Positions 951-63,742 of a stretch of 64,000 nucleotides of DNA are shown here, one piece after another. A program made the position numbers and the translations under genes. The DNA lies in the IMG/VR virus record IMGVR_UViG_3300012000_002412, positions 1 through 64,000 of that record; one strand, 5' to 3'. Under the pieces are notes generated by a model that saw nothing but the letters and a program-made list of their open reading frames with translations, ran no database searches and was not told the DNA's origin. The stretch's first letter is position 1, and each line of letters begins with the position of its first letter. The DNA is from a virus.

Positions 951-986
951 AAAAAAAAGAGGACTTTCGAGTCCTCTTTTTTTTTT
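951..986 (+). terminator. Intrinsic terminator after the fibre gene
   Basis: A perfect 7-bp GC-rich stem (GAGGACT/AGTCCTC) closes a TTCG tetraloop. It is extended by an A8 tract pairing with a T10 tract, so it can act in both directions. It lies about 30 bp after the fibre stop codon. Confidence 0.9.
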
Positions 987-995
987 ACATTGAAA

Positions 996-1148
996 AACAA
1001 AGAAAACACAGAAGTCGTTAGCTTCTGTGGTGAATTTGGTATGGATCTAAAATAAGACCCAAGAAATTAGAAATAAGCGTTGAAACGTCTAAAAAGAAGG
1101 AGCTTGTCTCCCTGAAACTTATCGGTCTTTAGTCGAAAAGTAGTTCAT
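996..1148 (+). mobile_element. Internally deleted IS200/IS605-type element (MITE-like remnant with omega-RNA-like end)
   Basis: Both ends match the complete TnpB element at 17841-19174. The left end shares AACAAAGAAAACAC followed by an 8-bp hairpin (1007-1014 with 1022-1029) around a TCGTTAG loop. The full element has the same hairpin with a compensatory G-C to A-T change and the loop TCTTTAG. The right ~75 bp share CGTCTAAAAAGAAGGAGC, then the CTTATCGGTCTTTAG hairpin and the terminal TAGTTCAT. The tnpB coding region is missing apart from its last ~70-100 bp, which corresponds to the omega-RNA scaffold. The right end lies 1 bp from the stop codon of the next (minus-strand) gene. Confidence 0.8.
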
Positions 1149-1149
1149 T

Positions 1150-2355
1150 TTAAATGTTATCGAATAAGTTTGTGTCTGGGTTATAAACTAAGTGTGAGTT
1201 ACCACCGGCGTAAAGATTATCAATTAGTTTATCATATGTTTCGATTAAGTCTTCATTGTCTGCATGATATCTTTGAAGCACTCTATCATTTCTTTGGTCG
1301 TATTCATCTAAGTTATTATCGTGTTCTGTTAAGACATAGTTTAATAATTCACTGCCCTTTTTTGTATCAGCTCCTTCATAATAGTATCCAAGATCCTTAC
1401 ATAGATTTGCGTTATGAATAACTGGGTACCCTAAAAATGCGGCATCTAAATAAAGGTAGTTTAAGGGGTTTAGCACTTGGTGACAGATTAAAACATCAAA
1501 ATACTGAGTAAGAACATAGGCCGTTTGATACCTGGCTTCTGCAAAAACTTTACGGTCCTTAAAAAGATCAAGGGTTTTAAGTAGACCCATAAATTCAAAA
1601 TTAGTCTTAAGTTTTTCAGCATTTGTAATCATTATAGCCTCTATTTTTTCTTTTCCTATTTCTGTTCTATAAGACTCTTCAGCAATCAAAGTTGGAATCA
1701 TTGAGTATTTTACAATATTCAAATTAGGTTCCATAACACCTAATGTTTTTTCTGATTTGAAAGGCACGTATTTCCAATCTTTTTTATATTTACCGCTCTT
1801 GAATCCCTTTTCAACCTCAGTGACTGCATCAAGTAAAAATTTATGATGCCATATAAAAGGTACCATAATTGCATTGGTTCTATAGAGAGTTCTGTAAAAA
1901 CCTGAATTTGTTTCGTGTTGTTGTGGTATGTACCAAAGCTCGTCAAAACACGATTCAACTTCCATATATCTTTCAACATTTTCATCAAATAAGACTTTTT
2001 CAACGTGTAGGATATAATTATTTCCGCATTTATAGGCGATATATTTTTTATTACCTAATTCTTTGAATTTTTTAATATACGATTCGTGGACTTGAGAGCC
2101 CATCATAATAATTAGGTCAAGTTCCAGGTATTTATCGTTAAAATAAAAAATATCTAAATCTTCAAAATGAGGTGCCTTTTTTAATTTTTCTTCTTCTTCT
2201 ATTTTTTTCGTATTCAGTATACAAACCTGGTAATTGTTTTTTGATTGTTTCAATAGATGAGCTAACATTAGCACGTTTTGTCTTATTCCGTTGGTCCAAA
2301 TTGATTCTGAAAGTGACTCTAGACTGAGTGTGATTCCAATTTTTAGGTTTTTCAT
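1150..2355 (-). CDS. DUF2827-like glycosyltransferase
   Basis: 401 residues. The N-terminus (KIGITLSLESLSESIWTNGIRQNV) and a late motif (PLNYLYLDAAFLGYPVIHNA) fit my memory of the DUF2827 family, GT-B-like putative glycosyltransferases found in bacterial surface-polysaccharide clusters. No signal peptide or membrane segment is seen, so it should act in the cytoplasm. In a phage it could glycosylate virion proteins, DNA or host surface glycans; the sequence does not say which. It is transcribed toward the IS remnant, whose right end abuts its stop codon, so the C-terminus may have been reshaped by that insertion. The family call is from motifs only. Confidence 0.55.
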   Translation of the reverse strand: MKNLKIGITLSLESLSESIWTNGIRQNVLMLAHLLKQSKNNYQVCILNTKKIEEEEKLKKAPHFEDLDIFYFNDKYLELDLIIMMGSQVHESYIKKFKELGNKKYIAYKCGNNYILHVEKVLFDENVERYMEVESCFDELWYIPQQHETNSGFYRTLYRTNAIMVPFIWHHKFLLDAVTEVEKGFKSGKYKKDWKYVPFKSEKTLGVMEPNLNIVKYSMIPTLIAEESYRTEIGKEKIEAIMITNAEKLKTNFEFMGLLKTLDLFKDRKVFAEARYQTAYVLTQYFDVLICHQVLNPLNYLYLDAAFLGYPVIHNANLCKDLGYYYEGADTKKGSELLNYVLTEHDNNLDEYDQRNDRVLQRYHADNEDLIETYDKLIDNLYAGGNSHLVYNPDTNLFDNI

Positions 2356-2413: not shown

Positions 2414-3421
2414 ATGATGTTTATAAAAAAATACTTAGATTTTATTTCTGAATCTTACAACGATTTTGACTCTATTGGTCAGTGGATAGAATCACTATCC
2501 ACTGATGATGAAATAATGAGAATTGTAAACAGATATATTACTGATGAAACTGGAATTTATCTAGGGAGTGACATTTCTCCAACAATCAAATTATCAAATG
2601 CCGTTAATCTGCTACCTGATAGAACAAAGTCTGAGATTAAATCTCAAATTATAGACTATTTACAACATGGCATTGAAGAAAAAAAGCCAGATATTATGGC
2701 TTCTACTCAGACTGGAGATTTGTTGGAAAATTTACTACAGGATTCACAAATTGTAAAAGCTGGTCGTGGTGTTTTTCAGTCTTTTTTAAAGACCTGGACA
2801 GCACTTGGTTTGAAAGACGAAAATCCAAATTGGTCTCAAACGCCTGCTGATATGTTAATTTGGTGGCAATCACCAGAGATGGCTTATTTAGAAGTTTCTC
2901 AAGTTTTTTCAAGATTTCGTTCACTTACTGGTTATCTTTCACAACCTCAAATAGGAAGTTCAGTGGTAAAGCTATATTTTGGTGTGAGTTGTGATGGTAG
3001 ATTGGAATATGGTATAATTTTAGAACAAAGAGTGGTTATTGGAGATTTCAAACTAAATAAATCAACACTCAATTGGATAAATAAACTTGCATTAAAATCA
3101 TCAAATTCATTAAGACAAGCGTTGAGTGGATTCGATTATTTTGACTTAAAATGTTTGGGTAGTATCAAAAATGATATGGCGCAATTTATTCCTGGCTACT
3201 TTGAAAGTAAATCAAACCCAACTATTACAAAAAAAATCATTTCATTTGGTTGGTATGGTGTTGGAAAGTGGGATAATGGTAAATTAGACGAAGGTGAATT
3301 GGAGAATATCAAACAAAATTTTGTCAGATGGTTAATGACAAAAAAATGGTCAGATAAGGTATTAATCAGTCTTAAGGCAAATTCATTCTGGATTTATATA
3401 CACATCAAATTAAAAGATTGA
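2414..3421 (+). CDS. Unknown protein with capsid-targeting-like N-terminus
   Basis: 335 residues, no family recognised. It starts MMFIKKYLDFISES, where I-S-E followed by S resembles a T4 prohead-protease site (hydrophobic-x-E). Eight other proteins in this window carry similar N-termini. The body is a soluble mixed alpha/beta protein with many Trp in the middle and C-terminal third and no transmembrane segment. An AT-rich TATATAA word lies directly before the start codon. Two ATGs occur in tandem (2414 and 2417). The packaging idea is inference; the gene itself is clear. Confidence 0.6.
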   Translation: MMFIKKYLDFISESYNDFDSIGQWIESLSTDDEIMRIVNRYITDETGIYLGSDISPTIKLSNAVNLLPDRTKSEIKSQIIDYLQHGIEEKKPDIMASTQTGDLLENLLQDSQIVKAGRGVFQSFLKTWTALGLKDENPNWSQTPADMLIWWQSPEMAYLEVSQVFSRFRSLTGYLSQPQIGSSVVKLYFGVSCDGRLEYGIILEQRVVIGDFKLNKSTLNWINKLALKSSNSLRQALSGFDYFDLKCLGSIKNDMAQFIPGYFESKSNPTITKKIISFGWYGVGKWDNGKLDEGELENIKQNFVRWLMTKKWSDKVLISLKANSFWIYIHIKLKD

Positions 3422-3481
3422 CATTAGTTAACTTACTTTAAAACCAACCAGACTTTTTAGTATATAAAAGATAAATTTATT

Positions 3482-3754
3482 ATGAGTTCATTAAAAGAAA
3501 TATCTATTCGTGATTATGTATCAAGAATTGATTTTAAGAGAGATGATTGGAAGTTATCACAGATGAAAGAAGATATGAGAAGGTTCTTAGGTGAAGAACC
3601 AGCTATAGAAATTATCTATAAAAAAGACGTGATGATAAATGAAGTCACTGGCAGGGCTCAGGAGTTTAAGGATATTGAGATGGTTCAAATAATCTTTACC
3701 GATACCGATGATAGATTTAAAAAACTAGAATTTAAAATTAGCGATATATTATAA
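3482..3754 (+). CDS. Hypothetical protein
   Basis: 90 residues, acidic and basic mixed, no motif recognised. It is the first of three small genes packed head to tail (3482-4280) with gaps of 2 bp and a 1-bp overlap, so they are probably cotranscribed and perhaps continue into the gp46-like gene. AGTATATAAAAG, a word similar to those before many genes here, lies about 12 bp before the ATG. Confidence 0.6.
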   Translation: MSSLKEISIRDYVSRIDFKRDDWKLSQMKEDMRRFLGEEPAIEIIYKKDVMINEVTGRAQEFKDIEMVQIIFTDTDDRFKKLEFKISDIL

Positions 3755-3756
3755 TT

Positions 3757-3975
3757 ATGAGCTTAAAAATTGAACAATATTATCTGGACTTAAAAAAAGT
3801 CGGTAAAATCAAATCTGATTCTGAAAGAGATAAAATTCATAGATATTACCAAGATCTGATGCACGCCGTTTCTGATGGTAGACAACAACAGGCGTTATCA
3901 TTGATGTTGACTTTACTTTCTTCTGGTTATTTGATAGACAGCCGAAACGAAAAAATAGAACATCTACTTTCATAA
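3757..3975 (+). CDS. Hypothetical protein
   Basis: 72 residues, predicted helical, no recognised domain. It begins 2 bp after the preceding stop, and its TAA overlaps the next ATG by one base (TAATG arrangement), which suggests translational coupling. Confidence 0.6.
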   Translation: MSLKIEQYYLDLKKVGKIKSDSERDKIHRYYQDLMHAVSDGRQQQALSLMLTLLSSGYLIDSRNEKIEHLLS

Positions 3976-4280
3976 TGGAAAATGAAATACAATTTGACAT
4001 TATTGATTATATGGGCCAACTTGATGGTGGTATATTTGTGTTAATGAATTTAAATTATCAATCTGAAAATTATGAGGCCATATTTTATTATAGGGAAACC
4101 ATCGTCTCTTTGACACCAGATCCTAAATTAGAAGAAAAAATCGGCTCTGAAATCGAAGACTACTGGGATTATTCAAATTTAATGATGAGAATTATTAAAA
4201 AATTAGTTCCCTATGAGCAAATGATTAATATAGTCAATGATTTTGACCCAAATGTCTATAGAATAGACTTCACTAAGTAA
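3975..4280 (+). CDS. Hypothetical protein
   Basis: 101 residues, acidic and Tyr/Asp-rich, no recognised family. It overlaps the preceding stop by 1 bp. It is followed after 43 bp by the gp46-like recombination gene. The position suggests an accessory early gene, but nothing in the protein proves this. Confidence 0.6.
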   Translation: MENEIQFDIIDYMGQLDGGIFVLMNLNYQSENYEAIFYYRETIVSLTPDPKLEEKIGSEIEDYWDYSNLMMRIIKKLVPYEQMINIVNDFDPNVYRIDFTK

Positions 4281-4323
4281 CCTTTCTGAATTTTATTATA
4301 TAATAATTAAATTTATTTAATAA

Positions 4324-6072
4324 ATGTTAATTAGTGAAATAGGTATACGTGGTTATAAATCATTTGGAAATAACGAACAAGTTCTAAAATTAAATACCGA
4401 AAGTGGCGAATTAGTCCTATTAGTCGGAAAAAATGGAAATGGAAAAAGTTCTCTACTCGAATCTTTTGAATATACGCTTTATGGTAAAGTAAAATCCGGT
4501 AAAACAAAGAAGTGGCATAAACTTTCTACACTGCCAAATAGAATAAACGGTGAATTACTAAATCGAATAAAATTTCAGTCAAATGGAACGGAAGTTGAAA
4601 TTAAAAGGGGAATTTCTCCAAGTGTTTTAGATTTAGTAGAAAATGGAGTTCTTTGTGAAAGAGCTGGTAAATCAAATATCGATGAAAAGATAGAAAAGTA
4701 TATTGGTATGGATATAGAGACATTTAAGTCTTTTATCTCGATGTCTATCAATGATTTTAGAAATTTTATCTCACTTACTAATGAAGAAAAGCAATTACTC
4801 CTAGATAAGTTATTTAATTTAGAAGTGATTAATATTTTAAATGGAATCTTAAAAGATTTAAATAAAAATAATAAAGTTAGATTAGCTTCTCTTGACTCTG
4901 AAATATCTGCCTTAGATGATTCTATAAATTCTATCAAAAGGTCGATTGAAAAGTCAATTGAACGAGAAAGATTGGAAGCCGAACTGGCAATTGAACGTGA
5001 AAAAGAAGATTTACAATCCGAAATCGATAGAATCTCAGTTGAGATGAATTCAAAAAAAGATGAATACAAGTCTTTAAAAGAAAAGATTGAAAAAATAAAA
5101 TTAAAAGAAAATGAACTTATTGAAGAATTGGACTTGGAAAAAAAACAATATATCAACACACAAAATGATATTAAAATTGTTGGACAAGAAATTGACCTTT
5201 ATGACTCGGGTAAATGTCCTACTTGTAGAACAGATTTTGACTCAGACCATTTTATTACTTTGCGCGGCTCTTTAGTGGAAAAGAAAAGAACATTTGAACA
5301 AGTAAAGTTAGAAATTGAAGATAATATAAAAAAAATAAAAGAAAGACAAAATAAACTTAAATCGTTGTCTGAGATGACGAATAATTCATTCAATGATTTA
5401 AATTACTTACTTAGAAATTATAAAGCAGAAATAGATAAATTATCAAAGAAAAGAGATGATCAAAAATTACCAAAAAATTTAGAACCTTCACTAAACGTCA
5501 GGGAGTTTCAAAATACCATAAATGAATTAGAAGAAAAGAAAGACCTATCACAAAATATGTTGACTATTTCCAAAGAAAAGGAAATGTATTATAGAGAGTT
5601 GAATAGAATTTTGTCGGAAGAAGGCGTTAAAAAATCGATAATTTCTGGAATTATAAAGCCTATCAATTTTTTTATTGCTGAAAACATCAAACAAATGTCA
5701 TTAAATTTTGAGGTTAAACTTGATGAGACTTTTACCGCTGAAATTAAGAGCTTGGGTTCACTAGTCGAACATGACTCACTATCAACCGGTGAGCAAAAAT
5801 TAACAAATATTTGCATACTGACGGCTTATCTAAAATTGATAAGAACAAAAAAACATGTTAATATTCTTTTTTTAGATGAAGTTTTTGCAAGCGTTGACTT
5901 GGATAATATTCAAAAAATATTAACACTCTTAAAGTCATTTGCAAATGATTATAATATAAATATATTTGTAGTTCACCATGCGGTGTTAAATCAGGAAATG
6001 TTTGATAGAATTCTACTGATTGAAAAAAATATTTTTTCAAGCATAACCGAAGTATCAGATTACAACATTTAA
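4324..6072 (+). CDS. SbcC/Rad50-like recombination endonuclease subunit (T4 gp46-like)
   Basis: 582 residues, close to T4 gp46 (about 560). The order of parts is typical: Walker A GKNGNGKS (residues 35-42), a long Glu/Lys coiled coil, a zinc hook CPTC (C298, C301), a second coil, the ABC signature LSTGEQ (from 486), Walker B ILFLDE (D518, E519) and a switch histidine in FVVHH. Such proteins pair with an Mre11/SbcD/gp47 nuclease to process DNA ends in recombination-dependent replication and host DNA breakdown. No gp47-like gene is visible in the window, so it must lie elsewhere. It is soluble and cytoplasmic. Confidence 0.9.
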   Translation: MLISEIGIRGYKSFGNNEQVLKLNTESGELVLLVGKNGNGKSSLLESFEYTLYGKVKSGKTKKWHKLSTLPNRINGELLNRIKFQSNGTEVEIKRGISPSVLDLVENGVLCERAGKSNIDEKIEKYIGMDIETFKSFISMSINDFRNFISLTNEEKQLLLDKLFNLEVINILNGILKDLNKNNKVRLASLDSEISALDDSINSIKRSIEKSIERERLEAELAIEREKEDLQSEIDRISVEMNSKKDEYKSLKEKIEKIKLKENELIEELDLEKKQYINTQNDIKIVGQEIDLYDSGKCPTCRTDFDSDHFITLRGSLVEKKRTFEQVKLEIEDNIKKIKERQNKLKSLSEMTNNSFNDLNYLLRNYKAEIDKLSKKRDDQKLPKNLEPSLNVREFQNTINELEEKKDLSQNMLTISKEKEMYYRELNRILSEEGVKKSIISGIIKPINFFIAENIKQMSLNFEVKLDETFTAEIKSLGSLVEHDSLSTGEQKLTNICILTAYLKLIRTKKHVNILFLDEVFASVDLDNIQKILTLLKSFANDYNINIFVVHHAVLNQEMFDRILLIEKNIFSSITEVSDYNI

Positions 6073-6091
6073 AACAACTGATCCATTTATC

Positions 6092-6100
6092 AATATATAA
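6092..6100 (+). promoter_or_regulatory. AATATATAA promoter-like word before bS21
   Basis: This word lies 17 bp upstream of the bS21 start in a non-coding gap and belongs to the group of AATATATA[AC] words found before many genes in the window. Calling it a phage promoter element is inference. Confidence 0.35.
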
Positions 6101-6117
6101 AAAAAATAATATAGAGA

Positions 6118-6309
6118 ATGTTTATAGTAGAAATCACACCAAAGCAAACAATCGAAAGAGCACTTAAAGTGCTAAAAAGAAAATGGGATAAAAATAAAGT
6201 CTCTAAAGAATTAAGAGACAGAAAAGAGTTTACAAAAAAATCTGTTAAAAGAAGAGAGCAGTTAAAAAAGGCAGCTTATATTGAACAAAAATATCGAACT
6301 AACAAATAG
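6118..6309 (+). CDS. rpsU: Phage-encoded ribosomal protein bS21
   Basis: 63 residues, full length for Bacteroidota bS21. Recognisable features are the N-terminal beta strand, then ERALKVLKRKWDKNKVSKEL, RKEFTKKSVKRREQLKKA and a basic C-terminal tail. In Bacteroidota, bS21 sits by the 3' end of 16S rRNA and helps hide the anti-Shine-Dalgarno sequence. A phage copy could replace the host protein on small subunits and bias initiation to phage mRNAs, which here lack Shine-Dalgarno sites. Phage bS21 genes are known from metagenomic and cultured phages. It is followed after 17 bp by dnaJ, probably in one transcript. Confidence 0.88.
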   Translation: MFIVEITPKQTIERALKVLKRKWDKNKVSKELRDRKEFTKKSVKRREQLKKAAYIEQKYRTNK

Positions 6310-6326
6310 TTCCCCCAAATCTACTA

Positions 6327-7040
6327 ATGGATATAAACATTAATTATTATTCGATACTTGGTGTAGACAGCTCGGCCGAAGAAAAAGAAATTAAAAAGGC
6401 GTACTATAAGCTTTCCTTTGAATTTCACCCTGATAAAAACCCATCAGCAGATCCTGTTATTTTCAGCCAGATGACTGAAGCTTATGGTGTGCTTTGCTCT
6501 GAAAAAAGACAGGAATATGATAAAAGAAGTAAATGGGGTAGATTTTATGATGAATACTATGAACTATTTGAATTAAATTATGAATACGACCATACTTCAC
6601 ATTTGACGCATTTAGAAACGTTCAAAAAAAATGAGATTAATAATATAATTTTGACCGTTGGTTCTGATTTTAACGGCACTGTTGAGTATGAGAGACTTGT
6701 TAAGTGTAAAAGCTGCGATGGAACAGGTAAAGACACTAAATCTAAAATCGTAATAAAAGACTTATCTGGAAATATACTTAAATCGTTTGATTCTGAAGAT
6801 GGGTGTGATTTTTGTGAAGGCACTGGTAAATTTGAAGGATTTGATTGTCAGTTTTGTTTTGGTAAGGGAAAAGTAGGATTAAATCCGTGTCAAACCTGTA
6901 GAGGTGAAAAAAGAATATGGGGTAAACAAAAAATTACTAAAATCAAATTAGTTGGAAAAGAAACTAAACTTGAATCTATGGGACACCATTCAAAAAATGA
7001 AGCTGGAAAAGTAGGATATCTCCTAATTAAACAGATCTAA
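6327..7040 (+). CDS. dnaJ: DnaJ-like co-chaperone (short type I)
   Basis: 237 residues against about 375 for bacterial DnaJ. The J domain is at residues 5-70 with the essential HPD (34-36), which stimulates DnaK/Hsp70. Four CxxCxGxG-type zinc motifs follow (C127/C130, C160/C163, C174/C177, C188/C191); the last reads CQTCRGEK and lacks the second Gly. The Gly/Phe linker is absent and the second C-terminal substrate-binding domain is missing. It is likely to redirect host DnaK toward phage protein folding. It converges with the giant virion gene that ends 2 bp away on the other strand. Confidence 0.87.
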   Translation: MDININYYSILGVDSSAEEKEIKKAYYKLSFEFHPDKNPSADPVIFSQMTEAYGVLCSEKRQEYDKRSKWGRFYDEYYELFELNYEYDHTSHLTHLETFKKNEINNIILTVGSDFNGTVEYERLVKCKSCDGTGKDTKSKIVIKDLSGNILKSFDSEDGCDFCEGTGKFEGFDCQFCFGKGKVGLNPCQTCRGEKRIWGKQKITKIKLVGKETKLESMGHHSKNEAGKVGYLLIKQI

Positions 7041-10936: not shown

Positions 10937-13900
10937 TTAAACTATTTCTTTAAATTTTATATCGAGTCCATTGTAATCTACCATCAATAATCCAGAATCT
11001 GATTTAATTACAGATTTTTCATATTCTGTATCAAGTAGTTCTTGCGCGATTACGCCTTCAAAAACTCTACCTGGTAGATGTATATATTCAAATTGATAGA
11101 GGTTAACTACTCCTATCTCTTTAATAAATTTAATATTTTTCTTAGCCCTTATATCTGACAACATAGGACCGACAAAATTATTAGCAGGTGGTATTGGTGG
11201 GTAAGACACCGCAACGGGTTGTGACGCATTATTAGTTGTAATCTGGGTGCTTCCTATACCTGACTGAAAGACGTTCCAAAAATGAGTTGATGATGTGCCA
11301 GAATAAGACATGCCCCTGAGTAATATTTGTTTATTGAAATCTGAAATGTTTACGCCATCGTAAACCATATAAGATCCAAACCAATTGCCGTTTCGCCAGA
11401 CGCCATCTTCCCAAAATATATTATAAGCATTCATGTACTCAGAAATTCCCCCTCTCCACACCATTCCAAAGGCCGTTCCTGAAATAAATTTTCCAGATTG
11501 CCATTGTGATATATAAAAATCACTATTTTCGAAATTCCCACCAGACCAGATACACTGACCGGTTTGTAGTAAAAGATCATCATTTAGATTAAAACTTCTA
11601 AGAGTTGACGGTGCTCTTTTAACCCAGGGGTTAAATGAACTTTGTAAAAACCTGCCCTTCTGAAATTCTCCAGATAACCAAACGCTGTTTTTAAATTCAC
11701 CGACTGAATGGCTAAAAGTCCCTGATTGCCATAGCATATTACTAAAATTAACTCTGCTTGATGATTGTATTGTTTCGGTTGCTCTTTTAAGAGTAGAAAA
11801 TATTTTTTGGTCTTTGATAAATTCGTCTTTTCGGTTAGTTACAAGACCGTCTTGCCAAAGACCCCAGAATGAAAAGGTAAATGAGTCTACAAATTGATCG
11901 GCATTTGATTGAGTCATTGCGTCTGGATTGTAGCCACCGACTGCGGACCAGCTCGATCCACCGATGAAATCACCTCCAGTAAACACACCGGTTTTCCAGA
12001 CTCTACCTTGAAATTTACCACCATTAAATTCACCGGTATACCACATGGAGTTTGTTGCCCCAGACGCTACGCCAAATTCACCACCATTAAATTGACCTGA
12101 TTCCCAACCAAATTGTGTCTGTGCTGTGGTGGCATAGGTCCAGCCAAATCCTGATGTGAATTTTCCACCGTTAAAGAATCCGTTTTTCCACTTTGCGTTT
12201 GTTGCAAATTCACCACCATTGAATTTTCCATATTCCCAAGTTGCGGTGTGATTTGATGATGTTTGAATAATGATATCACATCCAAAAATACCATCATTAA
12301 AAACTCCATCTTTCCAAATAATCTGAGACTGACTAAGTCCCATTAGTGATGTGTCTCTAGCAAACAAGTCAGCTCTTTCAACTATAGATTTTAAGACAGT
12401 TCCGTTAAAAAATTGAGTATTATGACTTGAAATTGATTTATCACCAATAATACCATTGCTGAAAGTTCCGGCATACCACGAAGAGTTCCAAAATTTCCCG
12501 TCAATGAAATTTCCTAATTCCCAATCGCTCTTCAAAAACTCACCATTGCTAAAAGTTCCAAATTGCCAAGACCAACGATTATTGAACAAAATGTCAGATG
12601 TCGGTCCTGATTTGAAATTATTGTAGATTCTCTCTGAATCATAGAATTGAGCATATGGAGTTGGTAGTTGATTGAAGCTTCTTGATTGATAAAATAAACC
12701 AGATTCAAAATATCCGTTTTCCCATCTTGACTCTTTAATTAAACCTCTTGAAAAAGTTCCGCCTTTCCAAAATGATCTAAAAAGAAGACCATCATTCCAT
12801 AAATCACTACCCATTGTGAAAAATGAATGTAGGTACGACCCCTTTGAAAGTATATTACTATTATTGTAAAACAAATTTTCAATGTTTATCAACTTTCTAA
12901 AGGCATTCTCGTCAGAAAAATCTTTGTCTGTTAAATCTAACTCGTCATTTTTGATTAAATTGTTATAGAGATAAGTTCTTTTTAATAACCCCGATTTAAT
13001 AAGTGACTTATTAATTTTAAGTGGATAGATATATCCCCATCTGTTTCCGACTCCTTCATTGTATGAGATTCCACCTGTTAATAGTGGTAAAATTGAACTA
13101 GTGGTTGTGATAATTTCTTTAAGCGTTATTTGATTATTTAAAACATTGGTTATCTTATACGCCTCTGGTAACAAATTTATTGAACCAGTTGTTGATATGA
13201 CCGTAACTTGCGCTGTTGATAATCCGTTGTCTATGTCTAGTATATCTCCGACTTGATACCCTACTCCTCCATTTGATATCGTAGCTGCTATCACTTCGCC
13301 GTTTAATATTGAGTTTATGGTAACTTGAGCATTTTGTGACCCACCAGAAATTTCTACAATATCCCCTAGTAAATAGCCACTACCTGAACTCACTACTGAT
13401 ACAGTTGTAAATAGACCCCCGGAAATAGTATAATCAAATGATAATCCAGTGCCTGATGTAGAAATTGGAATTGCTTGTTGTGAGGTGTATGTTCCATTGG
13501 GATAAGTATAGGGCAACGCGGGAGTGGTAATCGCCATGGTTATTGAAATGTCTCCAAGTTCAATTCCACCAATTGGGTTTGCTGTGATATCAACTGTAGC
13601 TTGTGTTCCTAGTCCACCAGATAGATTTTGAGTTGAAGTCGAGTATCCTGTCCCCTGAGAAAGTATTGAAATTTGATTTATTTTACCCTCTGTATTATAA
13701 CTTATATTGTTTAGAAACATAACATTTCCAACTTCAAAAAATTGGTCTAAGCTTTCTCTAAAATTATTATCAAGACCAACAGTTGCTATAATTGACTGGC
13801 TTTGTGTAACGACTTGTAAATCAAAGTATCCGCCACTATTTGAGTATTTTGTGATGTTATTATCGGCATTGAAATTGATGTTATTTCCTGAATTCCAGTT

Positions 13901-17806: not shown

Positions 17807-17959
17807 TATCTTTCAAATATTTTAATATTTATATGTTTCTAACAAAGAAAACACGGAAATCTTTAGTTTCTGTGATGAATTTGTTAATTATTTAATTAAA
17901 TATTTCAAAAAAGTTTAAAAAGTATTAAAAATGACTTTTAGAATTTAATATATACTAAT

Positions 17960-19165
17960 ATGTTAAAGTCGTATAAATATAAGATCAAACCTAATGAAGA
18001 ACAAATTGTTTTACTTAATAAACATTTTGGAGCTATTAGATTTGCTTATAACTATTTTCTAAATGAAAGAAAAGTTGAATACGAAACTAATAAACAGACC
18101 TTAAATTATAATGATAATTCAACCGCTTTAACAAAATTAAAGAAATTGGAAGAGTTTAAATGGTTAAAAGAAATTAATAGTCAATCACTTCAACATTCGT
18201 TAAAAGGTTTAGATGATGCTTATAATTCTTTTTTCAAGAAAAGAACAGGATTTCCTAAATTTAAGTCTAAACACACCAAAAATAGTTTCAAAGTTCCTCA
18301 ATTTGTTAAAGTTGTAGATGGAAAATTGATAATACCTAAATTCAAAGATCCAATAAATATTATACAAGATAGAAAATTTAAAGGAGAAATTAGACAATGC
18401 ACTCTTTCTAAAACACCAACTGGTGAATTCTTTGTTTCAATTTTAGTAGAGACAAATCATGAAAAATTTGAAAAAACTAATAAACAAATAGGAATTGATT
18501 TAGGACTTAAAGATTTTCTTATAACAAGTGATGGTTATAAATATAAGAATAATAGATATACCAAAACATATGCTAAAAAATTAAAAGAAAATCAACAACA
18601 TTTAAGTAGAAAAGTTAAAGGAAGTAATAGATATAATAAACAAAAATTAAAAGTATCTAAAATTCATAAGAAGATAACCAATTCTAGAATAGATAATCTA
18701 CATAAAGTATCCACTGAATTAATAAAGAAATATGATACTATATTTCTTGAAGATTTAAACATCAAAGGAATGGTTAAAAACCACAAATTAGCAAAACATA
18801 TTAGTGACGCTTCGTGGTCTAAATTCATTTCTATGTTGGAGTATAAAGCTAGTTGGAATGATAAACAAATTATTAAAGTTGATAGATTTTTTCCATCAAG
18901 TAAAACTTGTAATTGTTGTGGATATGTAAATCAAAATTTAAAATTAGATATTAGAGAATGGACTTGTCCATCTTGTAAAACTAAATTAGACAGAGATTTA
19001 AATGCAAGTAAAAATATCCTTAAAGAAGGAATTAAAATAATATCGTTAGGAACTAACGATTACCGACGTGGAGATGAAATAAGACCAGTTTTAACTGGCA
19101 TAATCGATGAAGCGTCTAAAAAGAAGGAGCATGTCTCTCGAAACTTATCGGTCTTTAGGCGATAA
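17960..19165 (+). CDS. tnpB: TnpB RNA-guided nuclease (IS605 OrfB family)
   Basis: 401 residues, a full-length TnpB. The RuvC-like centre appears intact: D180 in GIDLGLKD, E264 in FLEDLNIKGM and D346 in LDRDLNAS. A four-cysteine zinc ribbon (CNCCGY ... CPSC) lies between the second and third motifs, and the N-terminal helical/wedge part (MLKSYKYKIKPNEEQ) is complete. TnpB proteins are nucleases guided by an omega RNA made from the transposon right end; they cut donor sites and help retain the element. The stop codon lies inside the right-end hairpin, as in many such elements. It is AT-rich with codon use somewhat unlike its neighbours. Confidence 0.95.
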   Translation: MLKSYKYKIKPNEEQIVLLNKHFGAIRFAYNYFLNERKVEYETNKQTLNYNDNSTALTKLKKLEEFKWLKEINSQSLQHSLKGLDDAYNSFFKKRTGFPKFKSKHTKNSFKVPQFVKVVDGKLIIPKFKDPINIIQDRKFKGEIRQCTLSKTPTGEFFVSILVETNHEKFEKTNKQIGIDLGLKDFLITSDGYKYKNNRYTKTYAKKLKENQQHLSRKVKGSNRYNKQKLKVSKIHKKITNSRIDNLHKVSTELIKKYDTIFLEDLNIKGMVKNHKLAKHISDASWSKFISMLEYKASWNDKQIIKVDRFFPSSKTCNCCGYVNQNLKLDIREWTCPSCKTKLDRDLNASKNILKEGIKIISLGTNDYRRGDEIRPVLTGIIDEASKKKEHVSRNLSVFRR

Positions 19166-19174
19166 GTAGTTCAT
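19040..19174 (+). ncRNA. Predicted omega RNA (reRNA) scaffold at the tnpB 3' end
   Basis: In IS605 elements the guide RNA overlaps the 3' end of tnpB and the right end, with the guide taken from the flanking DNA. Here the tail of tnpB contains potential hairpins (CGTTAG/CTAACG near 19040-19055, CCAGTT/AACTGG near 19085-19100, and CTTATCG/CGATAAG at 19144-19166). The last ~75 bp are preserved in the remnant at 996-1148 although the coding region is lost there, which argues for an RNA or DNA-end function. The 5' boundary is a guess. Confidence 0.55.
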
Positions 19175-41515: not shown

Positions 41516-44500
41516 TTAGAAATTATTTAGTTTACTCCAAGTAGCCCCATTATATCCCCACCAACCCTTTTGTGTTATTAAAGCACCATCACCTGCATTT
41601 GCATAAACTAATAGTCCTTCTGTTGGTCCGACTATTGCTTCTGCTTGCGAACCTGTCATTACTGGTGGTAAGAAACCTGATGTGGTTGAACTGATGTGTA
41701 GTATCGCACTTGCGTTCGGAGTTGATGTTCCTATACCGATATTATCATTTGAGGCATCGACAAAGAATAAGTTTGAATTTGTTATTCCCTTTATTTTGAA
41801 ATCGTTGTCTAGGGATGATTCATTAAATATTGATGTTCCTTTATTTACAACCAATCCATAATTAGTTGAAGCTGAATATGAGTCGATGTAGACACCATAA
41901 TTAAGAGATCCGGTTCCCGAAACTTGAATATATGAACCTGTTCCACTTCCTGGACCATCTATCCATATTTGTTGACCCCAATTTGAAGCAGTGGTTGACA
42001 TTCGGATATATTGACCTCTGTTGTTTGAATTAGGTAGACCAGGACTAGTATAAATATATTGACCATAGGTGTTTTGACCTGAATGTATTAGTGTATATGA
42101 TCCATAAGTGGTGGTTGTGTTTGTTGGACTTCCGCCTTCGCCAAGAAAAGTGTATGATCCATATTTTGTCCCAGAGTTTGATACAAACGTGTTATAGACC
42201 CCATATACAACTCCGGTTGCTTGGGATGAATTATAGAGTCCATATTTAGTTCCAGTTGATGAAAGTGAGTTATAAAGCCCGTAACTGTTAGTTGAACTCG
42301 ATATGTAATTATAGATACCGTAGTTGTTAACTGTTGACCCCGTAACTTGATTATAAACGCCATAACTACTTGTTCCTGAATTACTCATATCGGTGTAAAG
42401 ACCATAAGATTGGTTAAAAGCCGATGATGTGTTGTTTGCTGTGTCTTGTATATAGAAGTTTCTTCTACCTTGAGTGGATGTTCTTATATGAAACACCGAT
42501 TCTGTGTTTGCTGAGGTAGTTCCAATACTTACCCTGCTTCCATTGTCATAAATCAATGAGTTAGTTAATCCAGTTGCAGAAGACCATTTCGGTAGATAAC
42601 TTGATGTCCCTGAGCCTTGAATTGATGATAATTGAACCCAACTTCCGTTTCCAGATGCGTCGGATTGTAAAAAGTATCCGTTACTTGGAGTTGCGGTCAA
42701 TTTAAATCCTTCTACTGATAAATTGGCAACTCTCAAATCAGAATAAGAATCTATTGCCACATTACCAATCACCGAACTTGAGTCATTGGTTTTAATGAAT
42801 GCAAAAACATCATCTGATTCATCCCAGATAAGTGATTGAGTTTGACCACTTCCTCTTGATATAAAGATACCAGAGTCAAGTGTTGGTGTGCCAGATTGTG
42901 TTGATGCTAGAAGTATAATAGGGTCTTGAACACTTAAATTAGTGGTATTAATAACTGTAGACGAACCACTTACAGTAAATCCTCCGCTTACTACTAACCC
43001 TCCAAATACCGATAGTGTATTTCCATCAAATGTCAAATTTGATTCTACTGTTCCGTTCGGAGCTGAACCGTCCAGAGTTATTAGACCATTGTCGGTTGTT
43101 CCTGATAGTGACAATACTCCGGAAGTTCCAGAAGTTCCAGATGAACCGATGCCTGAGGTTCCAGATGTGCCTGAGATACCAGAAGTTCCATTTATACCAG
43201 AAGTTCCATTAACTCCTGAAGTTCCAGATGAGCCAGAAGTCCCGGCTTGTGACACCAATGCCCAAGAAGAATTTAAAGGAGGCGGAGGTGTTCCATTTGT
43301 CCCATTCGCAAGACAAATGTAAGAGCTGCCTACATACTCAACAACATCGTTTATATTGTATGTTGTAAATGGACTCCAAGAATTTTTCCAGGCAAAAGAA
43401 GAACCAGAAGTTCCAGAAGTTGCAGAGGTCCCTGATGAACCGGAACTTCCTGATGAACCCGATACTCCGGAACTTCCTGATGAACCCGATACTCCGGAAC
43501 TTCCTGATGAACCCGATATCCCAGAAGTTCCATTAACTCCTGAAGTTCCACTTAATCCAGATGTTCCACTTGTTCCTGAATTTCCTGTGGCACCAGCTGC
43601 TCCAGATAACTCAATAGCCGAGGCATTTATGTAATCATATATAAAGTATATACTAGCTACGCTCGATGGTTTTATTGAAAGCGCAAACCAGTATTGAGTA
43701 GATGCTGTGAGGCCGGAAATTATCGTATTAATTTCCATAGCGTCACCACCAATGTATTTTAAAGCTTTTTCAGATGTTGGAGCCCCTGATGTTGGGTCGC
43801 CATCTTGAGGTGCGGTTCCAGTTCCATATCTTAGTTGAATAATGGCATCATCTTGTGGTTCGCCTGAAAACTGATATGATACCCAAACATCACCGGTAGA
43901 TTGTGGTGTAAAGTAAAATCCACCTGTTGCTCCTATCATTGATCCGTTTGCAGTAACTCCGAAAATTGTCAACTGTTGATAGGAGTTATTTGAATTAGAC
44001 CAGTTCATTTGTGTGTTGATTGCTGGTGAAGTTCCGCTAGTACCACTTGTGCTAGAAAAAGTAAAATTCGAAGATGTCCAACTTGCAATACCTGCGTCAT
44101 CAGAAACCAAAATATATCCATTGACTGCTCCTGTTGAAATTCTAAGTTCTTCTGTTGTGATTCTGCCCCTGACATCTAATTTAGAAGTTGGTAGATGAGT
44201 GTTTATTCCAACAAAATCTTGTTTATCAATTGTTTCAATGAGTTGTAAAGTGTTCACAGTTGAATTAGAAACAGCCACTCTACTGTTTTTTAAGTCATAG
44301 GCAAATTCTTTTGGTGAATTATTAACCAAAATTGATGAGATAACAGTATCTGATAAAGTATCAATTACTGATACCACACCAGAGCCGCTACAGGCAACAT
44401 AAACTCTTTTGTTTACTCCGTCATATAAAACTCCATCTGGGTTATTACCAACAGATACCGTTGCTACTATTGTGTCGCTTGTAGTGTCAATAACTGATAC

Positions 44501-46756
44501 GTTGTTTGATACATAGTTTGATACATATATTTTGCCACCATATTTATCCCAGGTCGCCCCATACGGGTTTGTTCCAACCGAAACTGTTGAACTTATGGTC
44601 AGTGTATTTATATCTACTTTTGCGATAAAATCTGGACCAACTCCAGTGACCCAAAGATTTCCGTTATCAGAATCTATTGTAAACTGTCTTGGGGTAGCTA
44701 TTGATATAGAAGAGGTAATTGAAAGTGAGTTGTTGTTAATTACACTTACCGAAGCTCCAATTTGATTGGAAACAAACGTTAAGCCGTTACTATTGTCGAC
44801 AATTACACCGGTAGGAAAGTTTCCAACTGAAATTGTAGCCGTGACTGCTTTTGTAACCGTATCAATAACCGAAACATTGTCTGAGTTTTGGTTTGCTACA
44901 AACATCTGATTATTTACTGAGTCCCAACTTATTGATATTGGATAGTTACCAACTGATACAGTGGCTACTATTTGTAAAGTGTCTGAGTTGAATATAGATA
45001 AATTATTTGAAAGTGCGTTTGTGACCCAAATTAAATTATTATATCCATCATATTCAACGCCAATAGGTCTATTTCCGCAATTTAGCGTAGAAAATGTATC
45101 TTTTGCTATAGCATCAGTAATATAAACAGATGATGTTGAAGATAAATTTTGTGAAGATTTCCATTTAGGAACATAATTAGTTGATCCAGAACCTGTTGCA
45201 GACAAAGACAAAACATTCCAAATTGAAGCTGTTCCTAAATCGACATATCTTTTTGATACAAGTGAGTAGGTTACAAATGTCGATTCAAAAGAATTTGAGT
45301 ATTGCAAACCAAGTGAATCCCCTGTATCAATATAGGCCGAATTGGCAGTCAAATCAAATTGACCAGGGGCTTCTATTTGTATGTTATTTCCTTGTAAATA
45401 AACATAAGCTTGAGAAAGTGCTCCTGAATCGGTCGATATCAAAACGTCGTCTGATGTGCTTGAAAAGTCCAAGTCTAATTGACCGCCTCCATTGTTGGAT
45501 TTTATAACCGTTCCGGTTCCCATAATAATATCTTTCACACCAGAGTCATTTCCTGATGTTAAGACAGTAGATAAATTCGGATTGGATAAAATACTTGTAA
45601 CATAATTTTTATCTACTAATGAATGTGTTGAGAAATTTAGAGAATAATCATCTGTGTATTCTAACCCTTTAAATGTTGATATTGGGCCTGATATTTTAGC
45701 TGTTCCAATTTCAGCATTAAGATTCAATTTAATCGTATCATAAGTCGTATCGGGGTCAGATGAGCTAATCGTTAAATCACTTTTATCCATTATTAGCGAA
45801 GAGTATTCAACCCAAGCAAATGTGGGTCCTTTAGTATTTGAAATTACAATAATCGAATTGGTTCCAGAACCAGGATCAGAGTTAACACCTATGTCTATCA
45901 GCTCCCTGTATTGTTTAGGTGAAAGTGGAAAGAGTAGCGGATTCCAATCAGTTCCTAAAACAACCCAAGCTTTGTCGTAATTAAACATATTTCGGTCTAA
46001 AATCGTTAAGCCATTACCTTCACTTAGTGTAAACATCGTGTCTGAACCAGTTGATCTAATCGAGTTATTCACACCAAAATATAAGTCTGGAACATAAACT
46101 GAATTAGACTGAGACGCTACAATGTTATCTCCACCTAATATTACCGTATTTGAAACACCTGGATATATTTTTGAGTTTTTTGTTCCAATTAATACAGCTG
46201 ATTTGTCACTATTACCCGTTGATGCGGTAAGTGATGTGTTATCCATGACTTTAATTTCGTCTATTTGTGAATAATTAAGTGTAGAATCAACTCCAATTGA
46301 AATCCAGCCACCTGGATTTAAATTGTAGATAGAAATGTTATTTCCACTGCCTCCAAAATTAATAGCCGATTTATATGCTTTTGAGAAGAGATTAACCACA
46401 GAATTCTGTAAAAGTAAACCAGATTCACCAAGTGCGCTATTATCGGTTGATAATAAAATGGAATTTGTCAAACCTAAATAATCTAATTCAATTTTTCCAC
46501 CCCCGTTAGAACTTTTCAAATAGGTTTGCGTTCCAAAAATAATATTTTGATTCGATGTGTTGTTTCCAATTGATAGAATATCACTAAGTGAGTATGTGCC
46601 TAAGTTTCCTGCTGTTGGTCCTCCTCCAACAAGTGTTATGTTTCCAGAAGAATCTTTTTGTTTAAGTATTCCATCTACATCATAACCTAATAACCATCCT
46701 GAAGGCGTAGCGGAAGTAGCAAATGAAAAGGACGAACCAAATGATATATAACTCAT
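41516..46756 (-). CDS. Giant tail fibre with YVTN propeller and collagen-like repeats
   Basis: 1746 residues in clear modules. The N-terminal 540 residues are beta-rich with two similar halves (SLSDILSIGN... and SNPNLSTVLTSGND...). A seven-bladed YVTN-type propeller spans ~550-850 (repeats of V-S-V-I-D-T...ATVSVGN-x-P). A jelly-roll-like segment follows. Collagen-like GTSGTSG/GSSGVSG runs (~1045-1220) are interrupted by a CBM5/12-like module (~1120-1165). Tandem YG[LV]Y repeats follow (~1450-1635), and the tip ends TGSQAEAIVGPTEGLLVY ... WWGYNGATWSKL, of the type found in Bacteroidota phage fibres. Most likely the main receptor-binding fibre. Confidence 0.82.
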   Translation of the reverse strand: MSYISFGSSFSFATSATPSGWLLGYDVDGILKQKDSSGNITLVGGGPTAGNLGTYSLSDILSIGNNTSNQNIIFGTQTYLKSSNGGGKIELDYLGLTNSILLSTDNSALGESGLLLQNSVVNLFSKAYKSAINFGGSGNNISIYNLNPGGWISIGVDSTLNYSQIDEIKVMDNTSLTASTGNSDKSAVLIGTKNSKIYPGVSNTVILGGDNIVASQSNSVYVPDLYFGVNNSIRSTGSDTMFTLSEGNGLTILDRNMFNYDKAWVVLGTDWNPLLFPLSPKQYRELIDIGVNSDPGSGTNSIIVISNTKGPTFAWVEYSSLIMDKSDLTISSSDPDTTYDTIKLNLNAEIGTAKISGPISTFKGLEYTDDYSLNFSTHSLVDKNYVTSILSNPNLSTVLTSGNDSGVKDIIMGTGTVIKSNNGGGQLDLDFSSTSDDVLISTDSGALSQAYVYLQGNNIQIEAPGQFDLTANSAYIDTGDSLGLQYSNSFESTFVTYSLVSKRYVDLGTASIWNVLSLSATGSGSTNYVPKWKSSQNLSSTSSVYITDAIAKDTFSTLNCGNRPIGVEYDGYNNLIWVTNALSNNLSIFNSDTLQIVATVSVGNYPISISWDSVNNQMFVANQNSDNVSVIDTVTKAVTATISVGNFPTGVIVDNSNGLTFVSNQIGASVSVINNNSLSITSSISIATPRQFTIDSDNGNLWVTGVGPDFIAKVDINTLTISSTVSVGTNPYGATWDKYGGKIYVSNYVSNNVSVIDTTSDTIVATVSVGNNPDGVLYDGVNKRVYVACSGSGVVSVIDTLSDTVISSILVNNSPKEFAYDLKNSRVAVSNSTVNTLQLIETIDKQDFVGINTHLPTSKLDVRGRITTEELRISTGAVNGYILVSDDAGIASWTSSNFTFSSTSGTSGTSPAINTQMNWSNSNNSYQQLTIFGVTANGSMIGATGGFYFTPQSTGDVWVSYQFSGEPQDDAIIQLRYGTGTAPQDGDPTSGAPTSEKALKYIGGDAMEINTIISGLTASTQYWFALSIKPSSVASIYFIYDYINASAIELSGAAGATGNSGTSGTSGLSGTSGVNGTSGISGSSGSSGVSGSSGSSGVSGSSGSSGSSGTSATSGTSGSSFAWKNSWSPFTTYNINDVVEYVGSSYICLANGTNGTPPPPLNSSWALVSQAGTSGSSGTSGVNGTSGINGTSGISGTSGTSGIGSSGTSGTSGVLSLSGTTDNGLITLDGSAPNGTVESNLTFDGNTLSVFGGLVVSGGFTVSGSSTVINTTNLSVQDPIILLASTQSGTPTLDSGIFISRGSGQTQSLIWDESDDVFAFIKTNDSSSVIGNVAIDSYSDLRVANLSVEGFKLTATPSNGYFLQSDASGNGSWVQLSSIQGSGTSSYLPKWSSATGLTNSLIYDNGSRVSIGTTSANTESVFHIRTSTQGRRNFYIQDTANNTSSAFNQSYGLYTDMSNSGTSSYGVYNQVTGSTVNNYGIYNYISSSTNSYGLYNSLSSTGTKYGLYNSSQATGVVYGVYNTFVSNSGTKYGSYTFLGEGGSPTNTTTTYGSYTLIHSGQNTYGQYIYTSPGLPNSNNRGQYIRMSTTASNWGQQIWIDGPGSGTGSYIQVSGTGSLNYGVYIDSYSASTNYGLVVNKGTSIFNESSLDNDFKIKGITNSNLFFVDASNDNIGIGTSTPNASAILHISSTTSGFLPPVMTGSQAEAIVGPTEGLLVYANAGDGALITQKGWWGYNGATWSKLNNF
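41860..42410 (-). repeat. Tandem YG[LV]Y repeats in the fibre
   Basis: About ten units of 14-20 residues, each with Y-G-[LVIS]-Y followed by a Ser/Thr/Gly-rich stretch (YGLYTDMSNSG, YGVYNQVTGS, YGIYNYISSS, YGLYNSLSST). The spacing suggests a triple beta-helix near the fibre tip; fold inferred. Confidence 0.65.
43090..43620 (-). repeat. Collagen-like GTSGTSG coding repeats
   Basis: Gly-x-x triplets (GTS, GSS, GVS, GIS, GVN) are encoded by low-complexity DNA with near-identical 15-27 bp units. A non-collagen module (about 43235-43400) interrupts them. Long open frames on the opposite strand, rich in P-E-V-P, are shadows of this repeat. Confidence 0.85.
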
Positions 46757-63500: not shown

Positions 63501-63585
63501 AGAGAAGTGTCAGAGCGGTCGAATGAGGCGGTCTTGAAAACCGTTGATCTTTACGGATCCGGGGGTTCGAATCCCTCCTTCTCTG
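63501..63585 (+). tRNA. tRNA-Ser(UGA)
   Basis: Acceptor AGAGAAG pairs with CTTCTCT, discriminator G. The anticodon stem GCGGT/ACCGT holds the loop CTTGAAA, anticodon TGA. A long variable arm (GATC/GATC) shows class II. The T arm GGGGG-TTCGAAT-CCCTC is canonical. CCA is not encoded (the next bases are CTT), so a CCA-adding enzyme is needed. Confidence 0.95.
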
Positions 63586-63595
63586 CTTAATATAT

Positions 63596-63668
<73 letters not shown>

Positions 63669-63742
63669 CAAAGTTTTCGTAGTGGTTAACTTTCCCTTGA
63701 TAGGGGGTCTGATTTTATCAGTGTGAATACCCAAATTCACTT
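63669..63742 (+). ncRNA. Structured RNA region (degenerate tRNA-like or small RNA)
   Basis: Between the initiator tRNA and the terminator lie three consecutive hairpins: CCCT-TGAT-AGGG (63694-63705), CTGAT-TTT-ATCAG (63709-63721) and GTGAAT-ACCCAA-ATTCAC (63723-63740). The order recalls the anticodon, variable and T arms of a class II tRNA, but the T loop lacks TTC and the acceptor ends pair poorly (GTTT/AAAC only). It may be a decayed tRNA or a small RNA. Confidence 0.4.

Follow-up and report, generated by a model that had tools for sequence, protein, structure and literature searches.

A tnpB-less derivative of an IS200/IS605 element in a phage genome, probably a degenerate PATE, and phage relatives with a complete omega-RNA scaffold

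The sequence of about 160 bp at positions 989–1148 of the window, the 64,000-nucleotide stretch of viral DNA analysed here (IMG/VR record IMGVR_UViG_3300012000_002412), contains both ends of a tnpB element but not its coding part, and its left end is fused straight to the right end. Taken as a whole, this remnant is probably a degenerate non-autonomous derivative of the PATE (palindrome-associated transposable element) type from a phage-borne IS200/IS605 lineage. An earlier note had described it as a MITE-like remnant of a tnpB element, which the homology of both ends and the missing coding part bore out, and also as a possible guide RNA that would retarget the phage TnpB in trans, a reading that presupposed an intact scaffold. 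The structure check found the scaffold broken. The locus is thereby removed from the candidate trans-acting guides, for a concrete structural reason, and is regarded as an ordinary deletion derivative. Of greater interest than the remnant locus itself is the wider phage family, in which the guides are complete although the enzyme is absent from the element. The features of the remnant and its surroundings are as follows:

951–980, strand not assigned: strong terminator hairpin that looks bidirectional, A8-GAGGAC..GTCCTC-T10 (DNA fold −14.5 kcal/mol, z −6.6)
984–988, plus strand: TTTAC, inferred target or transposon-adjacent motif before the remnant (TTTAY spacing)
989–1148, plus strand: remnant, ~160 bp, a tnpB-less PATE-like deletion derivative (end homology, TTTAY spacing)
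1006–1029, plus strand: left-end hairpin CACAGAAG-TCGTTAG-CTTCTGTG with a perfect 8-bp stem (DNA fold z −4.3)
1037–1040, plus strand: GGTA, likely micro-homology deletion point at the left-end/right-end junction (alignment with L175)
1042–1148, plus strand: right-end part, the 3' portion of the omega-RNA region (58.1 bits with the covariance model)
1149–1168, plus strand: sequence that would serve as guide, TTTAAATGTTATCGAATAAG, running antisense across the end of the neighbouring ORF 1150–2355; matched target, or empty allele form, TTTAC-TTTAAATGTTATCGAA

Comparison with the full tnpB element resident in the same window showed 87% identity over 46 bp at the left end (996–1041 versus 17841–17886, E 1.5e-10), or 82% over 55 bp in a longer alignment, and 89% at the right end (1073–1148 versus 19100–19174, E 4.9e-23). 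A third copy of either end was absent across the 165,275-bp viral record, and a search of phage GenBank with the remnant returned Listeria-phage terminator hairpins only. The left hairpin was intact (−7.6 kcal/mol folded as DNA), and the compensatory change noted earlier was confirmed for one pair, the last of the stem, a G-C in the remnant where the full copy has A-T (CACGGAAA..TTTCTGTG). Comparison with relatives identified CACAGAAG..CTTCTGTG as the usual form of the family and the resident full copy as the departing sequence. The right-end hairpin of the remnant, which carries an A-A mismatch, was weak (−3.1 kcal/mol as DNA, z −1.1, versus −7.2 and z −4.6 in the full copy).

The target motif was recognized from the left ends of the family: of 28 left ends with distinct flanks, 25 had TTTAT or TTTAC at a distance of exactly 10–11 nt upstream of the AAAG core, versus 7.8% by chance. 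Because TTTAY stands at this fixed spacing before the core, the remnant was placed at ~989–1148 and the full copy at ~17833–19174, with an uncertainty of ~2 nt depending on whether the boundary is TTTAY or TTTAYAT (TTTAC or TTTACAT in the remnant). Thus, the end homology of the 153-bp copy reported earlier at 996–1148 held, but its start lies most likely at ~989. A 280-bp relative in contig G002, found between genes 4310–4687 and 5040–6884, provided a further case: homologues of both flanking genes adjoin at ~79.7 kb in the phage of the window (79,830–79,601, minus strand), where the orthologous empty site reads TTTTATATATA without the element, which supports insertion after TTTAT. For the remnant's own site, a search with the protein of the adjacent ORF (P0002) gave a single, distant viral relative (39%) and hence no empty allele of this exact position. 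No target duplication was visible around TTTAC.

The remnant is inserted where the T-tract of the terminator hairpin at 951–980 ends. This hairpin lies 3' of ORF 166–918, a tail-fibre-like ORF built from diverged short repeats of the SVDSRVSTEES type, noted at 7–650 of the window. Among the insertions of the family, strong stems were observed in 28% versus 10% (p = 0.06), and no preference for terminators is claimed. That the remnant is kept for a local role, terminating transcripts of the convergent ORF 1150–2355, is hardly probable. On the minus strand, the left-end and GGAG hairpins do form terminator-like stems followed by T-rich tracts (two versus 0.2 expected); however, a stronger bidirectional terminator is already present at 951–980, and such an appearance is inherent to IS605 end hairpins.

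The resident element, with which the remnant was compared, comprises the following features:

17828–17832, plus strand: TTTAT, target before the full copy (TTTAY spacing)
17833–19174, plus strand: full tnpB-only element with left end, tnpB and right end (end homology, scaffold score)
17960–19165, plus strand: tnpB, 401 aa, ISDra2-TnpB-like (E 3e-81 to PDB 8bf8)
19037–19174, plus strand: omega-RNA scaffold of the full copy, intact, with stem 1 bearing GGAAC, stems 2–4 and the GTTCAT end (143.1 bits, E 2.4e-26, for a training sequence of the model)

The TnpB of this element contains OrfB_IS605 and Cas12f1-like TNB domains with the RuvC catalytic D/E/D positions kept, and the element is predicted to be a source of both intact TnpB and intact omega RNA. 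Since the Y1 transposase TnpA (PF01797) was not found in the viral record, the resident copy was classified as tnpB-only. Close homologues of its TnpB (73–83%) occurred in phage contigs only; none was detected among 84,980 GTDB species genomes, where the best matches reached 44–46%. The resident copy shares its TnpB domains, catalytic residues and left- and right-end hairpins with the IS200/IS605, IS1341-like, ISDra2 TnpB group. Like ISDra2, it inserts 3' of a short motif and has a right-end RNA with stem 1, a pseudoknot and a stem 4 with a UUUA loop (PMC10097598). It differs from ISDra2 in the motif, which is TTTAY instead of TTGAT, and in an extra hairpin between stems 2 and 4.

In the ISDra2 TnpB structure, the guide RNA consists of stems 1–4 and a pseudoknot that pairs the 3' UUC with a GAA beside stem 1; positions −116 to −1 form the scaffold, and deletions upstream of −116 are harmless (PMC10097598). 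The homologous structure of the phage scaffold was worked out independently from an alignment (A2) of 17 tnpB-linked right ends, and included stem 1 (AUCGUCA-GGAAC-UGACGAU), stem 2 (AGACGU..ACGUCU), stem 3 (CCAGU..ACUGG), the extra hairpin, stem 4 with its UUUA loop and the pseudoknot GAAC/GUUC. In these 17 scaffolds, 95.5% of the cells were paired, compared with 23–39% in slid versions of the structure, and double-sided changes amounted to 82 cells versus 23.6 ± 4.4 in shuffles. The pseudoknot was paired in 17/17.

Against this structure, the remnant scored 58.1 bits with the covariance model (R1), and the resident full copy, itself one of the training sequences, 143.1 bits. The 3' portion of the remnant is homologous to a TnpB omega RNA (reRNA), with the extra hairpin GGAG..CTCC still present, a stem 4 that retains the UUUA loop and 9 of 10 pairs (the A-A mismatch is the exception), UAGUUCAU intact, and the GUUCAU end. 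Stem 1 is absent and the pseudoknot partner GGRAC occurs nowhere in 984–1148, whereas stem 1 and the 3' GUUC pseudoknot were present in all 17 tnpB-linked and 15 tnpB-less relatives (100%). GGTATGG stands in place of the 5' strand of stem 2, stem 3 is gone, and a forced alignment gave just scattered pairs for stems 2 and 3. The earlier claim that the omega-RNA scaffold is kept was accordingly not upheld. The stem 1 that the covariance model placed in the remnant was rejected: it consists of G-U-rich pairs from left-end sequence, which are non-homologous and lack the pseudoknot letters.

With stem 1 and the pseudoknot partner deleted, the remnant should not be able to supply a normal guide RNA to TnpB; we infer this functional loss from the ISDra2 structure and from the complete conservation of the pseudoknot in the relatives. 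The possibility that the locus is nevertheless a trans-acting guide gene, whose omega RNA would load the resident TnpB and target the end of the adjacent ORF in an empty allele, was evaluated with the same data. One component of the earlier proposal, that a guide made here would come from the 3' end of the neighbouring gene, agrees with the sequence: the stretch past ..GTTCAT runs antisense through the stop and the last codons of ORF 1150–2355. The product of this ORF, a putative glycosyltransferase, was so named in the earlier note. A TnpB that is intact and catalytically complete by sequence is encoded in the same genome, the extra hairpin, stem 4 and GTTCAT are conserved, and the left-end GAAT at 1032–1035 might conceivably stand in as the pseudoknot partner of GTTC. 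However, in addition to the loss of stem 1 with its GGRAC loop and the broken stems 2 and 3, the tnpB leader, apparently retained by full-scaffold relatives such as L205, is gone from the remnant, and a strong terminator lies upstream. The would-be guide had no second target with one mismatch or fewer in the 165-kb record, in which the best second site had two mismatches and no TTTAY. A guide function of the remnant, redirecting the phage TnpB in trans, is therefore not supported and seems very improbable.

The preferred reading, a degenerate PATE-type derivative, has precedents. In Haloquadratum, PATEs formed from IS605 elements by repeat-mediated core deletion (PMC3119063), and one copy consisting of LE and RE only was described in Halanaerobium (PMC7290912). 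Like PATEs, the remnant is too short for a transposase gene (160 bp, without tnpA or tnpB) and has near-terminal palindromes of the IS605 type, of which the LE palindrome is perfect and the RE one homologous but weakened. Unlike the elements of Haloquadratum and Halanaerobium, it is located in a bacteriophage genome, and its right-end RNA region is just partly left. Neither mobilisation in trans nor multiplication to several copies is evident, and because it is a single copy without a sibling junction, we assigned it as degenerate PATE-like only.

We suggest that an ancestor element inserted 3' of TTTAC in the T-tract of the terminator. A later loss of internal sequence, probably by deletion between GGTA micro-repeats, would have fused the left end to the final ~107 bp of the right end. 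GGTA marks the junction and also occurs in each of the parental segments, as ..TTTGGTA in the left end and ..ACAGGTATGGAG (also given as ..ACAGGTATGG) in the right end of L175, which fits a repeat-mediated core deletion as in the Haloquadratum PATEs. The left end of the remnant was identical to those of L205, L020 and L005 at 42 of 44 positions, compared with 40 of 46 for the resident copy, and its last ~60 nt were nearly identical to L175. Thus, the remnant is closer to other phage copies and did not arise recently from the resident one. A search of IMG/VR, where few close relatives of the phage are covered, gave no sibling sharing this junction, which points to one derivative and not to an amplified family. 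Over its last ~75 bp, the remnant is conserved to the same degree as functional copies (68/76 relative to the full copy and likewise to L175), with an intact terminal GTAGTTCAT. Residual selection could account for this, and part of the match may reflect recent origin only.

After the deletion, the remnant would have been inert or, at best, passively mobile by means of a Y1 transposase (TnpA) from the host or a co-infecting phage. Possible sources of such a transposase were found in phage contigs G036 (L056), G040 (L232) and G039 (L187). Complete elements of ~1.77 kb, with a left end identical to that of the family and with tnpA and tnpB encoded on the minus and plus strands, respectively, were located at 2559–4327 (L056) and 4695–6464 (L232). 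An IS605-type element with tnpA(−), tnpB(+) and the same left end runs off the contig end at 10988–11914 (L236), and contig G003 contains a tnpA+tnpB element running off the contig end together with one tnpB-less copy. Thus, the autonomous partner is in circulation among phages, and the tnpA+tnpB elements of L056, L232 and L236 are likely the mobilising partner. Passive mobility of the remnant with TnpA in trans is possible, although no sign that it ever moved was observed. That it is a currently mobile PATE or MITE is unlikely: the perfect left hairpin, the terminal GTAGTTCAT, the TTTAC target, the autonomous elements with the same left end in phages (L056, L232, G003, G039) and the multi-copy nature of the related 280-bp and 370-bp tnpB-less elements favour such spread, but the remnant has one copy in its own record, its junction was found nowhere else in IMG/VR, the A-A mismatch weakens its right-end hairpin, and the record lacks tnpA.

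Searching viral contigs with the right-end motif and the scaffold motif revealed many tnpB-less copies with a complete scaffold; a search with a 16-mer left-end pattern gave matches mostly by chance. Two size groups were distinguished. The ~280-bp group includes L205, L175, L084/L280 and L091, and the more distant L236 and L262, with the same left end as the elements of the window; its core copies are ~96% identical and occupy different insertion sites, and its members appear to retain the tnpB leader (..AATATGTTAGG). Complete internal copies of the ~370-bp group were found in 3300042332_001447 (two), 3300042332_001032 (four), 3300042332_001711 (one) and 3300032331_003909 (one), with additional partial copies at contig ends; intact tnpB genes were present in the first contig (one) and in the second (two). 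The left-end hairpin of this group, CTGAGTGA-TCTTTAG-TCACTCAG, has the same loop as the right end, a pre-hairpin covaries among copies (GAACAT..ATGTTC, GAAACT..AGTTTC, CTAGT..ACTAG), and the target is TTTAY in most copies. The members L363, L353, L354, L362, L365, L368 and L367 (records G018, G019 and G020) each have a different 3' flank. Viral contigs G018, G020, G002 and G007 end inside element copies; the repeats thus seem to interrupt metagenome assembly, and copies are undercounted.

In 15 tnpB-less scaffolds, 95.9% of the pairs and 100% of the pseudoknots were kept, with 55 double-sided changes versus 16.6 ± 3.1 in shuffles, in an alignment that was fitted to the covariance model and included some copies found via a pattern containing GGRAC. 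The pseudoknot partner was also kept in copies found by DNA similarity alone (for example, L353, L354, L362, L363, L365 and L368). These scaffolds scored 98–127 bits, and L296, whose right end is lost, 65 bits. The scaffold model thus tells working from broken guide copies, and the candidate guides for use by TnpB in trans are the full-scaffold tnpB-less elements, not the remnant.

By analogy with TnpB biology (PMC8612924, PMC11870625), the RNA of each full-scaffold copy would take the flank of its own site as guide and would likely cut empty alleles. A plasmid TnpB gene drive combines TnpB and guide in one element (PMC11870625). A similar logic, in which a flank-read guide would cut empty alleles, is likely for the full-scaffold relatives, with the difference that the phage elements carry the guide without the enzyme. 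The remnant could then be a dead member of a phage class made of ends and a complete omega RNA, in which guide-only elements rely on the TnpB of a resident copy or of a co-infecting phage, cut empty alleles at each of their insertion sites and home enzyme-free, one TnpB serving several independent guides per genome; we put this forward as a tentative proposal, somewhat short of an even chance. The guides of G018–G020 had no convincing second targets in the contigs examined. This would fit a defence of the insertion site better than a regulation of other genes, and a regulatory, TldR-like role of these guides was considered and left aside as unsupported. Several guide-only elements per contig occur in 3300042332_001447, 3300042332_001032, 3300020727_000860 and 3300025413_001414, the first two beside tnpB. 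These multi-copy contigs allow testing of whether TnpB serves guides in trans and thereby drives non-coding elements through phage populations.

In addition, several minor observations were made. L145 (158), L147 (minus strand, 6018) and L202 (minus strand, 5453) have the right-end hairpin only, with a short GGAGCGTAAAAC-type stretch ahead of it and no scaffold; they are possibly another, shorter ends-only family. Right-end copies occurred in tandem or close together in L212 (two copies 158 bp apart) and L253, where the left-end hairpins are extended to a longer palindrome (CAAATTCATCACAGAAG..CTTCTGTGATGAATTTG). An Rfam scan at gathering thresholds returned two tRNAs and nothing else; at 63501–63669 of the window, tRNA-Ser (TGA) adjoins tRNA-Met. 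Dense 9/18-bp repeats coding for a P-E-V-P type sequence were observed at 43134–43603 of the window, within ORF 41516–46756.
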